Assembly (NCBI GenBank): GCA_949296825.1
Contig: CASFQZ010000015.1
Location: 1 to 55,387, forward strand
Source of the DNA: an uncultured Eubacteriales bacterium
Lineage (GTDB): Bacteria > Bacillota > Clostridia > Oscillospirales > Acutalibacteraceae
DNA: 55,387 nucleotides
Direction of reading: 5' to 3'
A program made the position numbers and the translations under genes. The notes beneath the pieces are model-generated. The model did not search any database and was not told where the DNA came from. It saw only the letters and a list, made by a program, of their open reading frames with translations. Of the stretch, positions 47,504 to 50,886 are shown in pieces (within the stretch, counting starts at the first letter, position 1; each line of letters opens with the position of its first letter).

Positions 47504-48742
47504 ATGAAATTGGATCGGCTGATTGCAAAAAAAGACATGTATGCCAAATATATGCTGCAGGAAATCACCCATATCTGCAAGAACATTCCGCCCCGCGATC
47601 CCGGTTCTGAGGGCGAAAAACTGTCCTGCGAGTATATGGCAAAAGTTCTCAAGGAAGATTGTGGCTGCGAAGAAGCAACCGTTGAGAGCTTCCAGGAACA
47701 TCCCGGCTCCTTTTTCGGCTGGATCTATCTGACCTTTACCTTTCTTTTTATTGGCGTTGCTTTGTTCTTTGTCGCGCCGATCATTTCAATTCTTTTGATT
47801 TTTTTGGGTTTTCTGTTGGCGTTCTTACAGTTTGGCTTTTATAAAAAAGCGGTCGATTTTCTGTTTCCCGAAAAAACAGGTCATAATGTAACCGCAATCA
47901 AAAAGTGCAAAGGAGAAGTTAAACGCCGCATTTTCTTCAATGGTCACCCGGATGCCGCGTGGGAATGGCCAGTAAATTATGCCCTCGGCGGCGTCGGTTT
48001 TGAGGGGCACGCCTTGATTTCCATCGTTGGAGCGCTGTATTATTTAATTCTTTCTATTGTTGTCACGGTAAAAGAGGGCGCCTTTGGTGTTCTTCCGATG
48101 GATTCCGAATATGTCAAATGGGCGCTGGGCGGTCTTGTCTTTGTACCATTCTGGATTGGCATGTATTTTATGTGGAATAAAAACCGTGTAGTAGACGGCG
48201 CCAACGATAACCTTTCCGGCTGTTATATGGGCATTGCTGTACTAAAAGCGCTGAAAGATGAAGGCATTGAATTGGAAAATACTGAAGTAGGCGTAATTTT
48301 GACCGGCTCCGAAGAGGCTGGACTGCGCGGCTCAAAAGCATGGGCAGAGCAGCACAAAAACGACTATGACGATGTACCGACCTTTATCATTTCCTATGAC
48401 ACCATTCATGATCCCAAATATCTGATGACCAACTATCGCGATTTGAATGGCACGGTCAAGGCAGATAAGGATGTTTCCGATCTGTTCATGGAAGCTGCTG
48501 CAGAATTAAAAATCCCCTGCAAAAAAGGCTGGGTCCCGCCCCTGGGCGGCGCAACCGATTCCGCTGCGTTTGCACAGGCGGGCTTTCGCGCCACAGGTAT
48601 CACCGGTTTGAACCATAAACTGGAATCTTATTATCACACCAGAAGAGATTCCTACGACAATATGAATCTGACAGGACTCGGCGATTGCTTCGCTATCAGT
48701 GTTAAGGCCCTTGAAATGTTTGACGAGGGCGCAAAACAATAA
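47504..48742 (+). CDS. M28-family metallopeptidase with membrane segments
   Basis: The 412-residue protein has all five zinc-ligand positions of an M28 aminopeptidase: His148 (FFNGHPDAAW), Asp235 (DGANDNLSG), Glu270/271 (LTGSEEAGLRGSKAW), Asp299 (ISYDTIHDP) and His378 (YYHTRRDSYDN). Unusually, about four hydrophobic helices lie inside the fold: roughly residues 70-93 and 93-112 before His148, and 168-190 and 205-223 between His148 and Asp235. No signal peptide is seen. ATG 47504 follows CAGGAGG; the in-frame ATG 47456 has none. Substrate unknown. Confidence 0.85.
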   Translation: MKLDRLIAKKDMYAKYMLQEITHICKNIPPRDPGSEGEKLSCEYMAKVLKEDCGCEEATVESFQEHPGSFFGWIYLTFTFLFIGVALFFVAPIISILLIFLGFLLAFLQFGFYKKAVDFLFPEKTGHNVTAIKKCKGEVKRRIFFNGHPDAAWEWPVNYALGGVGFEGHALISIVGALYYLILSIVVTVKEGAFGVLPMDSEYVKWALGGLVFVPFWIGMYFMWNKNRVVDGANDNLSGCYMGIAVLKALKDEGIELENTEVGVILTGSEEAGLRGSKAWAEQHKNDYDDVPTFIISYDTIHDPKYLMTNYRDLNGTVKADKDVSDLFMEAAAELKIPCKKGWVPPLGGATDSAAFAQAGFRATGITGLNHKLESYYHTRRDSYDNMNLTGLGDCFAISVKALEMFDEGAKQ

Positions 48743-48758
48743 TCTTCTTATCTTATAA

Positions 48759-48790
48759 AAGGCTGCCGGACAAACTCGGCAGCCTTTTTT
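48759..48790 (+). terminator. Terminator of the M28 gene (also convergent methyltransferase)
   Basis: AAGGCTGCCG/CGGCAGCCTT 10-bp stem, 8-nt loop, then T-tract; it lies two bases before the stop of the minus-strand gene and may serve both. Confidence 0.92.
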
Positions 48791-48791
48791 C

Positions 48792-49628
48792 TCATATTTT
48801 TTGGAAAATATCCAGCGTATGATCCGATATGCCGCTCATATCCAATCTTTCACAGGTGATAAAATGATAGTTCAGATAACATTCAAAATCCGCAGGATTC
48901 ATTTGATCCACGGCGTGTCGAATCAGATTGGTACAGCCGTCTGTCGCGACATAATGCAGCTGCTTAACTGGAAAAGCTTCGCGCAGCGCATCGATTTCCT
49001 CTTTTCTGATCAGCTGAAAAATATCCTTTTTACCGGAATGGCAGGAAAAAGTTTCGGTGTCGACCTTACCGCGGGCAATAAATTTACGAATTTCTCCGCC
49101 GCCGAATCCATGCAGGATTAGCACCGCATCCGCCATACAGTAAGCGGCAAAGATAACCCCGCCTGTTTTTGTAACACGAATTGCTTCCGAAAGCGCCTGT
49201 TTTTGATCTTCAAAAGTGTAAAGATGATACAGCGGTCCCAGCAGCAAAGTAATGTCAAAGGTATTATCAGGGAAAAAAGAAAGGTTCATCGCATTGCCCT
49301 GACGAATTGTAACGGTCTCATTGGGCAACGTCTTTTTTTGAAAATGCTCAATGTTGCTTTGCACCAGTTCAACTGCGTCAACCGCATAGCCCTTTTGGGC
49401 AAAATAATGGGAATATCTTCCGGTAGCGGCGCCGATTTCAAGAATGCGCATTCCATCTTGCAGGTATTTTTCTACATACCGCAGGGTGGTCAAAAACTCC
49501 ACCTGTCCGCGTCTTGACAGCAGACGATTGTCCTCATCAAAGGTTCCATAATAAGCTGCAATTGGTCCCAAAGTTTTTTCCAGTCGTTTTCGTTTTTCTT
49601 TGCGATACAGTTTTTGAATAAGATTCAT
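48792..49628 (-). CDS. Class I SAM-dependent methyltransferase under leader control
   Basis: The 278-residue protein has SAM motif I MRILEIGAATGRYSHYFAQKGY, the acidic beta-2 end (VDAVELVQSN), GNAMNLSFFPDNTFDITLLLGPLYHL (motif post-I/IV) and RVTKTGGVIFAAYC. The C-terminal CERLDMSGISDHTLDIFQKI resembles a conserved tail in a group of Firmicutes methyltransferases, as far as I recall. It is not an Erm-type rRNA methylase: there is no NPPY motif. ATG 49628 follows AAGGAG; a longer frame to 49751 would cross the terminator. The upstream leader peptide and terminator suggest induction by translation inhibition, so a drug- or ribosome-related substrate is possible but not shown. Confidence 0.85.
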   Translation of the reverse strand: MNLIQKLYRKEKRKRLEKTLGPIAAYYGTFDEDNRLLSRRGQVEFLTTLRYVEKYLQDGMRILEIGAATGRYSHYFAQKGYAVDAVELVQSNIEHFQKKTLPNETVTIRQGNAMNLSFFPDNTFDITLLLGPLYHLYTFEDQKQALSEAIRVTKTGGVIFAAYCMADAVLILHGFGGGEIRKFIARGKVDTETFSCHSGKKDIFQLIRKEEIDALREAFPVKQLHYVATDGCTNLIRHAVDQMNPADFECYLNYHFITCERLDMSGISDHTLDIFQKI

Positions 49629-49675
49629 TCTTTCTCCTTCTTTCCAAATGGTCGATTCGCGCTTTTTTGCGATAT

Positions 49676-49708
49676 AAAAAAGCGGTGCAGCCAATCGACT
49701 GCACCGCT
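49676..49708 (-). terminator. Attenuator terminator before the methyltransferase gene
   Basis: On the minus strand AGCGGTGCAG/CTGCACCGCT is a perfect 10-bp stem with an 8-nt loop followed by six T. It stands between the leader ORF and the methyltransferase ATG. A competing partner (CTG-3-CCGCT, 49752-49762) in the leader ORF can pair with its 5' arm. Confidence 0.9.
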
Positions 49709-49732
49709 CAGCATTTGTATCACAAAAAGCGT

Positions 49733-49831
49733 TCATTTGTGAAGAAAACACAGCGGAAACAGCCCGACGGAAACAAAATCAGCGCCGTCAAGCCAGAAAA
49801 AATCTTGATTGTTAGAATAGTGCATCAACAT
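49733..49831 (-). CDS. 32-residue leader peptide
   Basis: The small frame begins at ATG 49831, ten bases after GGAGGA (49842-49847), and reads MLMHYSNNQDFF.. to ..PLCFLHK. It is rich in Phe, Leu, Val and Trp and has no domain. It directly follows a consensus promoter, and its stop is 24 bases before a strong terminator. Its codons contain one arm of the predicted antiterminator. The frame is open further upstream, but that part lies before the predicted transcript start. It resembles regulatory leader peptides of attenuated resistance genes; conservation could not be checked. Confidence 0.65.
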   Translation of the reverse strand: MLMHYSNNQDFFWLDGADFVSVGLFPLCFLHK

Positions 49832-49858
49832 TGTTCTTAAATCCTCCGTGTTTTTTTG

Positions 49859-49887
49859 AGTATAGCAAGCTATAAATGTTTTGTCAA
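49859..49887 (-). promoter_or_regulatory. Promoter of the leader-methyltransferase transcript, set in two dyads
   Basis: On the minus strand a perfect TTGACA, 17-base spacer and TATACT. The dyad AAATGTT-5-AACATTT (49874-49892) covers the -35 and TATAGC-2-GCTATA (49861-49874) covers the -10, so both could be operators. The first dyad may also act as the weak end of the upstream kinase gene. Confidence 0.82.
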
Positions 49888-49893
49888 CATTTT

Positions 49894-50886
49894 TTAAAAT
49901 TTTTCGCAAAACAGCGCCCGAATTTCTTCCGCAGTTGCCGTACCGGTTTCCCCGATTTTTTGAATGGTGACTGCGGACGCCAAAGAAGCAAATTCCGCGC
50001 AGCGAAGCAAATTGCAGCCGGTACCCACTGCCAGAGCAAATGCAGAAAGAAAACTGTCGCCGGCACCGCAAATATCCAGAGGACCGTCTATGGTAACTGC
50101 CGGAATATTTCGTAAATAGCTGCCGTCGGTGATAATTGCACCCTGGCTGCCCAGAGTTTCAATAACCGTGGCGTAACATTTACTCGCCAGTTCGCGGGCA
50201 TTTTCTTCAGCGGAAAGAGAGGAGTTTTTGCCGCAAGCAGCTTGGCATTCGGATTCATTTGGCTTCAATATAACATTCCGGTATTCCGCAATATGATACC
50301 GGCTGTCCGCAATAATTTTCAATCCGTCTTGCGCCAGGGAAGACAGTTTGTCTCGCACCGCCGGCGTGACAATGCCGTTTTTAAATTGATCGGCGACCGC
50401 CAAAACATCCATCGAGGAGGACAAATGCTCCAGCAGTAAAAGAATTTGTTCTTCCGTCTCTTTTGACGGCGGATTCGGAGACACAAAATCCAGGCGGGGA
50501 TCTTCATAAATCACATCGGATATCCCCTTGCGCAGCGGCTTACAATAGGCGCTGGTCCACCGCTCAGGGCATACGATCAGAGATGCGTCGATTCCTTTTT
50601 GCGAGAGCGCTTCCTCCAGCAGCATACCGCGCCAATCATCGCCCTTAATGCCAAGACAGTGGAGAGATGCAGGACGCAGGGCGGCAAGATTTGCCGCGAC
50701 ATTTCCTGCGGCGCCCGGCGCCACCCGTTCTTCCATAATCGGAAGAGGGAAATGCGGTGTTTCCTTGGAAAGCTCACTTTGCGTCATATCGGCAAGCCAG
50801 TAAATATCAACGCAAAAGTCTCCTAAAATTCCGATATGAACTTTTTGAATATCTTCCAGTAATTCATTGAGATTTCCGATTGTCAT
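49894..50886 (-). CDS. PfkB-family carbohydrate kinase (RfaE1-like)
   Basis: The 330-residue kinase begins with VHIGILGDFCVDIYWLAD and has PGAAGNVAANLAAL, the family N-terminal Gly-rich pattern, and the PfkB signature 2 PLDICGAGDSFLSAFALAVG with the catalytic Asp. VAPGAAGNVAANLAAL and the RYHIAEYRNVILKPNESE block resemble the kinase half of heptose-phosphate enzymes (RfaE/HldE). No nucleotidyltransferase half is attached and no heptose genes are near, so the substrate sugar is uncertain. Its start overlaps the coaX stop by 4 bases. Confidence 0.85.
   Translation of the reverse strand: MTIGNLNELLEDIQKVHIGILGDFCVDIYWLADMTQSELSKETPHFPLPIMEERVAPGAAGNVAANLAALRPASLHCLGIKGDDWRGMLLEEALSQKGIDASLIVCPERWTSAYCKPLRKGISDVIYEDPRLDFVSPNPPSKETEEQILLLLEHLSSSMDVLAVADQFKNGIVTPAVRDKLSSLAQDGLKIIADSRYHIAEYRNVILKPNESECQAACGKNSSLSAEENARELASKCYATVIETLGSQGAIITDGSYLRNIPAVTIDGPLDICGAGDSFLSAFALAVGTGCNLLRCAEFASLASAVTIQKIGETGTATAEEIRALFCEKF

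Follow-up and report, generated by a model that had tools for sequence, protein, structure and literature searches.

A gene for a class I SAM-dependent methyltransferase, designated MT1, is encoded on the minus strand of the window, i.e. the entire analysed stretch of 55,387 nt, which belongs to a genome of 2.1 Mb in 109 contigs (92% complete). Upstream of MT1, a promoter is followed by a small open reading frame (leader ORF) with its own Shine-Dalgarno (SD) sequence and by an intrinsic terminator. The segments proposed to pair alternatively are numbered 1 to 4, and the features of the locus are the following:

49882..49887, minus strand: -35 element TTGACA of the leader promoter (sequence reading)
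49859..49864, minus strand: -10 element TATACT, spacer of 17 nt (sequence reading)
49842..49855, minus strand: segment 1, leader SD region AAAACACGGAGGA, putative anti-antiterminator strand; pairs with 49745-49759 (-14.9 kcal/mol)
49847-49843, minus strand: GGAGG, SD of the leader ORF (sequence reading)
49733..49831, minus strand: leader ORF of 32 codons, ATG at 49831, stop codon at 49735-49733, peptide MLMHYSNNQDFFWLDGADFVSVGLFPLCFLHK; same layout in the locus L032
49793..49795, minus strand: Trp codon W13, upstream of the Trp register of other leaders
49766..49789, minus strand: internal hairpin GACGG...CCGTC within the leader ORF, found in folds and shared with L032
49752..49762, minus strand: segment 2, putative antiterminator arm CTG-3-CCGCT; the homologous arm covaries in 48 leaders
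49745..49759, minus strand: antiterminator box, portion complementary to segment 1 (folds, duplex energy)
49721..49741, minus strand: CACAAA/TTTGTG hairpin in the antiterminator loop, predicted with a ribosome on the start codon
49699..49708, minus strand: segment 3, terminator 5' arm AGCGG-2-CAG (sequence, pairing energy)
49681..49690, minus strand: segment 4, terminator 3' arm, with the T tract at 49681-49676 (sequence, pairing energy)
48792..49628, minus strand: MT1, class I SAM-dependent methyltransferase of 278 aa, ATG at 49628 (Methyltransf_11, E 5.8e-16)

The stop codon of a PfkB-type kinase gene is located 6 nt ahead of the leader promoter (49882-49894). The best NCBIfam match of this kinase is rfaE_dom_I, under the cut-off of that model, and its gene and one for a type III pantothenate kinase share 4 nt. 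On the other side, MT1 and a convergent gene for an M28-type peptidase end 49 nt apart (48742-48792), and the inverted repeat AAGGCTGCCG...CGGCAGCCTT between the two could terminate both.

The original prediction, a leader peptide with terminator and antiterminator in front of a methyltransferase gene that is not of the Erm type, describes the elements of the locus correctly. The promoter, the 32-codon ORF, its ribosome site, the terminator and the MT1 start codon are all found where it had placed them, with a gap of 24 nt between the leader ORF stop codon and the perfect 10-bp terminator (49708-49681). The mutually exclusive pairings and the CACAAA/TTTGTG hairpin are likewise present, with -18.9 kcal/mol for the terminator and -12.9 kcal/mol for the antiterminator including the inner hairpin. 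The duplex between SD region and box (-14.9 kcal/mol) is found in the minimum free energy (MFE) structure of the ribosome-free nascent transcript. The 224-nt leader folds with a z-score of -5.0 that is equalled by none of 200 shuffles. Among 2000 mononucleotide shuffles, 50 match the pairing of ORF and terminator arm and 85 that of the SD with the 3' part of the ORF. These window-only pairings are moderately unlikely to arise by chance, so that conservation in relatives (recurrence and covariation) is decisive.

MT1 scores 21.6 bits with the Erm model NF000499 (cut-off 212) and matches no NCBIfam equivalog at its cut-off. Its AlphaFold model has a mean pLDDT of 73, and the 50 Foldseek matches listed are assorted class I methyltransferases with query TM-scores of 0.34-0.46. 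The fold is thus that of a generic class I methyltransferase, from which no substrate follows.

Relatives of MT1 were identified in 45 of 300 family genomes (E <= 1e-20), complemented by 10 loci from a collection of genome contigs. Homologues of the methyltransferase gene had been named as the place to seek the same small ORF and terminator, and this leader architecture is found directly upstream of MT1 in 23 of 40 loci (L002-L041, the window counted). In three of the other 17 loci (L035, L036, L039), the leader is located farther up, before the gene for a second methyltransferase (MT2) that precedes MT1. The -35 element of the 23 MT1-linked leaders is TTGACA in 21 and TTGAAT in L008; none was located in L034. 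In the nearest relative, L032, MT1 is 81% identical and the ORF, the GACGG/CCGTC hairpin and an antiterminator arm are all kept.

The alignment of the 23 leaders (A1), which extends from close to the Trp codon as far as the terminator, was the source of a covariance model (R1). At E <= 0.01, R1 has matches in 61 of 398 genomes of the family and in 66 of 394 of the order, with at most four per genome; these tallies include weak and antisense matches and contain false positives, since matches weaker than about E 7e-4 are mostly uninspected. Among the R1 and R2 matches, some mirror a real leader on the opposite strand. Including the 23 starters, 101 places were collected, of which 98 are distinct, 92 were accepted and six were dropped. 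The candidates L124, L130 and L133-L136 (R1 E 6e-5 to 7e-4) are terminators without leader or box and were excluded from all counts; L124 still scored E 2.7e-6 with R3, a model without the Trp-codon region that was built from R1 finds. In the same 394 genomes, R3 yields 60 places at E <= 1.1e-6, 59 of them already in the R1 list; six extra R3 matches were fetched, of which three are real (L187, L188, L191) and three false, and all were kept out of the statistics.

Nearly all of the 92 accepted leaders come from one order of gut Clostridia. Class-wide, at E <= 1e-3, the model R2 has matches in 13 of 341 genomes, of which three belong to the order; among seven inspected loci outside the order, one is real (L138, before a gene that is MT1-like by eye) and six lack a leader, with four weak places uninspected. 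As judged from the inspected class-level loci, the leader element is rare beyond the order. Methyltransferase homologues located on a Subdoligranulum plasmid record or a phage-labelled faecal contig are without an R2 match. A search of IMG/VR with the box pattern gave three contigs that were rejected as chance, two of the matches falling within the coding frames of unrelated genes; with R2, two contigs score poorly (E 1.8e-4 and 1.6e-3) and the third gives no match.

The samples differ between analyses. All 92 leaders, of which five are doubtful owing to weak arm pairing (L114, L115, L121, L128, L129), were used for partner swaps and nascent-transcript folding. A model-aligned set of 66 is the basis of the 1:2 register, of the anatomy and frame counts and of the ribosome geometry; the 26 leaders outside it comprise 22 close relatives and the weak L114, L115, L121 and L129. 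Of the 68 rows of the underlying alignment A2, two are antisense (L078 on the plus and L010 on the minus strand); these were kept in R2 and removed from the 1:2 counts. For covariation of 2:3 and 3:4, the model-aligned 66 were thinned by similarity to 48, with L010 and L128 omitted. A different set of 66, obtained by thinning the 92 by peptide similarity, was used for the Trp register, the first genes and the open-frame counts, and 69 leaders, thinned otherwise, for the residue bias.

The medians in the model-aligned set are 76 nt from start codon to arm, 18 nt from arm to stop codon and 27 nt from stop codon to terminator. Segment 2 of most leaders contains the box GGGCTTRYATTGYCGTACYC. Its 5' half pairs with the terminator 5' arm and its 3' half, in many leaders, with the SD and start codon of the same leader, as in L104, where GTGTGACCATG pairs with CATGGTCATAC. 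In the 48 leaders, 93.0% of the 525 cells of the 2:3 helix are paired, compared to at most 44.3% in slid registers, and 97.5% of the 3:4 cells; the corresponding values for the 23 leaders of A1 are 87.6% and 97.2%. Changes on both sides occur in nine of the 11 pairs of the 2:3 helix, i.e. the homologues carry the compensatory changes expected from the original prediction, and the number of double-change cells (50) exceeds the 18.2 found in shuffles (0 of 500 reach it). The antiterminator, which is mutually exclusive with the terminator, is thus kept through compensatory changes. In the canonical register of the 1:2 helix, 77.0% of the cells are paired in the 66 leaders, as opposed to at most 56.2% in slides and a mean of 72.2% (maximum 74.5%) in row shuffles, none of 1000 reaching the observed value. 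Compared by alignment, the 1:2 signal appears weaker than that of 2:3, though significant. In the window and the subgroup with peptides MNTYL.., 1:2 pairing takes another register than the canonical one.

Exchanging pairing partners among the 92 leaders shows that the own partner is better on average by 3.69 (1:2), 2.34 (2:3) and 8.91 kcal/mol (3:4), with three control pairings at 0.0 to 0.3 kcal/mol in the opposite direction. The ranks of the window are 0.52 (1:2), 0.06 (2:3) and 0.00 (3:4); its segment 1 is no better than foreign ones, the tested piece having missed part of the strand. Ranks above 0.4 are found in 21 of 92 leaders for 1:2 and in 21 of 92 for 2:3. All 92 leaders possess a terminator-like hairpin, for which the model itself selects, and 89 an SD-like motif, the ORFs having been chosen to span the box. 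Alignment of the leaders shows their conservation, the covariation of 2:3 and 3:4, a weaker signal for 1:2, a shared geometry and the gene contexts described below. As far as sequence comparison can tell, this conserved family of ribosome-mediated transcription attenuators is real.

The first genes behind the 66 peptide-thinned leaders were assigned by BLAST against reference proteins from these loci. They encode MT1 in 35 cases (a label that includes distant matches of 25-31% identity in L071, L093, L099 and L114), MT2 in eight, a RimJ/L-like GNAT in seven, a double GNAT in three, another GNAT in three and a small AAA_18-like kinase in two; a nucleoside phosphorylase/AMP-nucleosidase-like protein, an S51 peptidase, an S66 peptidase, ANT(6), a MetRS-like protein and a further GNAT are found once each, and two genes are unassigned. 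The view that the leader controls a methyltransferase gene is consistent with the 23 of 40 loci; specificity for this gene is not, as many unrelated genes carry the leader. Some RimJ/L-like GNATs are fused to an MT1-like domain: in L103, L104, L107, L112 and L125, both domains lie in one frame of ~440-470 aa under the leader, with the domain evidence shown for L103. In L110 (2065-2916), a gene resembling ANT(6)/streptomycin adenylyltransferase directly follows the leader and is itself followed by MT1; it scores 348 bits with Pfam Adenyl_transf and 248.9 with NCBIfam ANT_6, under the cut-off of 420. The MetRS-like gene of L115 (975-2903, 643 aa) follows a leader in which the true ORF start is probably a GTG ahead of the assigned one, and an S66-like match (37% identity) is located further down. 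The downstream genes thus belong to families that include resistance and detoxification enzymes, and from family membership a resistance role may be inferred for them. Two further observations concern single loci: the MT1 frame after the leader of L073 ends at 65 codons and the gene looks broken, and the leader-controlled gene row of L117 contains a short 4Fe-4S protein (1902-2621) that resembles part of QueG.

The arrangement of pairings, ORF and terminator suggests that the leader is probably a ribosome-mediated transcription attenuator of four segments that senses slowed or stalled translation. Segment 1 would be the SD and start codon, segment 2 the box near the end of the ORF, and segments 3 and 4 the arms of the intrinsic terminator. 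The off state would combine 1:2 (anti-antiterminator) with 3:4 (terminator), and the on state would consist of 2:3 (antiterminator). Without a ribosome, 1:2 would form and RNA polymerase would terminate. During fluent translation, a ribosome would be over segment 2 as segment 3 emerges, again leading to termination. If a ribosome were instead halted on the start codon or at any later position until ~13 nt ahead of segment 2, 2:3 could pair and the gene would be read. Such a switch would report slowed or stalled elongation largely regardless of which amino acids are encoded, in line with an induction by translation inhibitors.

For folding, the nascent transcript was cut in the terminator loop and ribosome footprints were kept unpaired. 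The mean 2:3 probability across the 92 leaders is 0.51 with no ribosome, 0.72 with a ribosome on the start codon, 0.68 in mid ORF and 0.36 on the stop codon; the values for the window are 0.25, 0.82, 0.90 and 0.71. A ribosome on the start codon gives a 2:3 probability higher by >0.1 than one on the stop codon in 61 of 92 leaders, and the reverse holds in three. Compared to no ribosome, masking the start codon raises 2:3 by >0.1 in 42 leaders and lowers it in five, with little change in the rest; a 1:2 probability above 0.25 is reached by only 36 of the 92 leaders when no ribosome is present. In the window, the ribosome-free MFE structure pairs the SD with the box and leaves the terminator arm largely unpaired, and a ribosome on the start codon yields the antiterminator and inner hairpin with additional pairs. 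We infer from the constrained folds and the analogy to vmlR and bmrB (see below) that a stall at the start codon or early in the ORF corresponds to the on state; that the leader switches at all, and upon which inducers, is likewise deduced.

The original prediction needs to be amended in its mechanism. The leader-ORF-dependent attenuator stands, conserved with compensatory change; the third helix, between SD/start region and box, had been missed. As this region can pair with the box, an untranslated leader is predicted to terminate, not to be read through. Moreover, a ribosome at the ORF stop codon was thought to cover the antiterminator arm; given a footprint assumed to extend from -12 to +15 of the P-site, it covers 0 nt of it in the window and in 56 of 66 leaders, and in the window the arm is covered only with codons about 20-32 in the A site. 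Since a ribosome on the stop codon leaves the arm free in these leaders and the 2:3 probability of the window is still 0.71 there, the off state under normal growth would depend on timing, with transcription and translation running in step.

The E. coli trp attenuator follows a logic of 1:2, 2:3 and 3:4 pairings in which segment 1 includes tandem Trp codons. The leaders share this logic and, in many cases, a Trp codon; unlike in trp, segment 1 is the SD/start region, and the Trp codon is usually single and absent from many leaders. A classical aminoacyl-tRNA attenuator, at least for the MT-type leaders, in which a ribosome waits at the Trp codon when Trp-tRNA is low (e.g. under a tryptophanyl-tRNA synthetase inhibitor), is unlikely, even though several counts speak for it. 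Among the 66 peptide-thinned leaders, 45 in-frame TGG codons lie no more than 45 nt ahead of the arm, and 27 of these begin at a distance of 13-14 nt from it, compared to 1 of 22 out-of-frame TGG; this in-frame register is present with the arm in any of the three frames. In vmlR, the toeprint lies at +16, counted from the start codon's first nucleotide (PMC9226507, excerpt); given this distance, the register of 13-14 nt is that of the last A-site codon with the arm fully exposed. This codon is Trp in 28 of the 66 model-aligned leaders, the window not among them: its Trp13 is found 33 nt ahead of the arm, and Phe19 is the final residue that can occupy the A site with the arm free, which speaks against a Trp trigger there. 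A Trp precedes the arm in 29 of 35 MT1 leaders versus 9 of the 29 that precede other genes (Fisher p = 3.5e-5, in the peptide-thinned set, whose leaders are phylogenetically non-independent), which leaves 20 of 29 leaders before other genes without Trp; in several MNTYL.. leaders the arm is misplaced and Trp scored as absent, which acts against the trend. The residues before the arm are biased towards Trp (3.1x), Met (2.5x) and Asn (2.35x) and against Glu (0.17x) in 69 leaders. As the segments behind R1 started close to the Trp codon, leaders with Trp may be over-represented and their counts inflated, and R3, from which the Trp region was omitted, derives from R1 finds with 59 of its 60 places already R1-listed; the in-frame preference cannot arise in this way. 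A general lack of Trp runs and of any Trp-metabolism gene among the assigned first genes also argues against Trp-tRNA as the common trigger.

The leader peptides comprise 29-60 aa with a median of 35 in the 66 model-aligned leaders (ORFs mostly of 29-45 codons), and they are poorly conserved. The arm is read in all three frames of the ORF (38, 24 and 4 of 66 leaders), e.g. as GLALSYP, GLYCRT or RACIVVP, so that the peptides end differently. A comparison of 19 independent pairs of related leaders finds 29 synonymous and 72 non-synonymous single-nucleotide codon changes upstream of the arm, with 23.3 synonymous changes expected without selection, and the differences are spread over the codon positions as 51, 62 and 56. 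Across leaders, the SD, the distances and a frame open until just beyond the arm are retained. All 66 peptide-thinned leaders have an open leader frame up to the arm, compared to 24 and 18 for the other two frames and 17.3 expected from shuffling; as leader frames were picked for openness, this count is weak evidence alone. With the box in three frames and so little conservation of the peptide, selection appears to act on RNA and translation and not on an arrest peptide. An attenuator of the Erm, Cat or MsrD kind, with a drug-specific arrest peptide, would fit a leader peptide and terminator preceding a methyltransferase gene, and is very improbable given peptides that diverge almost as if unselected. 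From the earlier idea of an antibiotic-inducible attenuator, the logic thus persists and the Erm-like recognition of a peptide falls away. Separately, the leader ORF of L010 lacks the stop codon of its sister L013 and continues for 60 codons through the terminator, and the frames of L017 and L054 are shifted relative to their sisters just before the box, with the box kept and the C-terminal peptide wholly changed.

The strong conservation of the box in most leaders could also reflect an RNA that binds a small molecule or protein, with the ORF being incidental. This is highly improbable: the box pairs with segments 1 and 3, which accounts for its conservation, and the SD-like motif in 89 of 92 leaders and an open frame from start codon to arm at near-constant distance (ORFs chosen open) argue for translation. 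The leader also has no Rfam match: the window gave none at the gathering threshold, and 10 loci gave two at E <= 1, neither at the leader. An ordinary terminator beside a small protein gene, without switching, would explain the promoter and intrinsic terminator, both real, and is practically dismissed by the covarying antiterminator helix and the swap tests.

A ribosome-mediated attenuator sensing slowed translation, the preferred reading, has counterparts among known systems, compared here on the basis of excerpts from the cited papers. B. subtilis vmlR shares a uORF with anti-antiterminator, antiterminator and terminator; a ribosome held on the uORF blocks the anti-antiterminator, so that the antiterminator forms, and of three uORF sequence variants tested, two were as functional as the wild type (PMC9226507). 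It differs by a 3-codon uORF inside the anti-antiterminator stem-loop, a single-stranded SD and a single ABC-F gene (PMC9226507); here, the ORF mostly has 29-45 codons, the SD/AUG region itself is the pairing strand, the box lies near the ORF end and many genes follow. The pause motif TTNTTT matters in vmlR (PMC9226507) and is not enriched here: among 59 leaders, 7, 6 and 6 carry this NusG motif in three regions versus 6.2, 4.7 and 5.9 expected. The ORF of the window has two matches ahead of the arm. B. subtilis bmrB-bmrCD, as described, shares a longer leader ORF, a predicted anti-antiterminator, antiterminator and terminator, and the sensing of several ribosome-targeting antibiotics in which translation rate matters; its terminator lies within the leader coding region and its target is an ABC transporter (PMC4191407). 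In E. coli toiL-topAI, a uORF also senses several inhibitor classes and a stall almost anywhere works, and it differs in acting on the topAI ribosome-binding site and Rho without an intrinsic terminator (PMC12121999).

Two other systems share single elements. In the Sinorhizobium DUF1127 uORF, the ribosome-binding site pairs with the uORF's own codons when ribosome-free; unlike here, the pairing blocks C-rich codons at the beginning of the uORF, on whose accessibility attenuation depends, and gene and phylum are others (PMC12218461). B. subtilis tlrB/yxjB likewise has a leader peptide and terminator before a drug-inducible rRNA methyltransferase gene, and is described with a 9-aa leader, an RYR arrest motif, a NusG pause and, in the excerpt, no identified antiterminator (PMC6851288); the leaders studied here have no shared arrest motif. 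The attenuation logic is thus already known (vmlR, bmrB, toiL), and the leader family itself is, as far as searched, undescribed: searches of open PMC papers and of Rfam yielded no description (subscription papers were outside the scope), and no such motif appears in the uORF-related excerpts of two RNA-motif surveys (PMC11109978, PMC6429828).

A more far-reaching and rather doubtful interpretation is that of a widespread, gene-swapping sensor module of the gut Clostridia. The box would serve both as antiterminator and as a lock on the leader's ribosome-binding site, in three frames, and one A-site codon at the fixed register of 13-14 nt would tune each copy to a particular translation block (e.g. 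inhibition of one aminoacyl-tRNA synthetase), driving the matching detoxification gene. If so, Trp would tune most methyltransferase leaders and other codons other genes, the matching genes being those for the methyltransferase, N-acetyltransferase, S66 peptidase, nucleoside phosphorylase-like enzyme, ANT(6) and a spare MetRS-like protein.

For the attenuator family as such, the 92 leaders represent a natural comparative dataset in which the sensor RNA is conserved and peptide and reading frame drift. From its sequence alone, the leader indicates which of the otherwise uncharacterised enzymes in uncultured gut Clostridia are likely to respond to translation stress, and it points to candidate resistance or detoxification functions of MT1, MT2, the small kinase and others that are directly testable.
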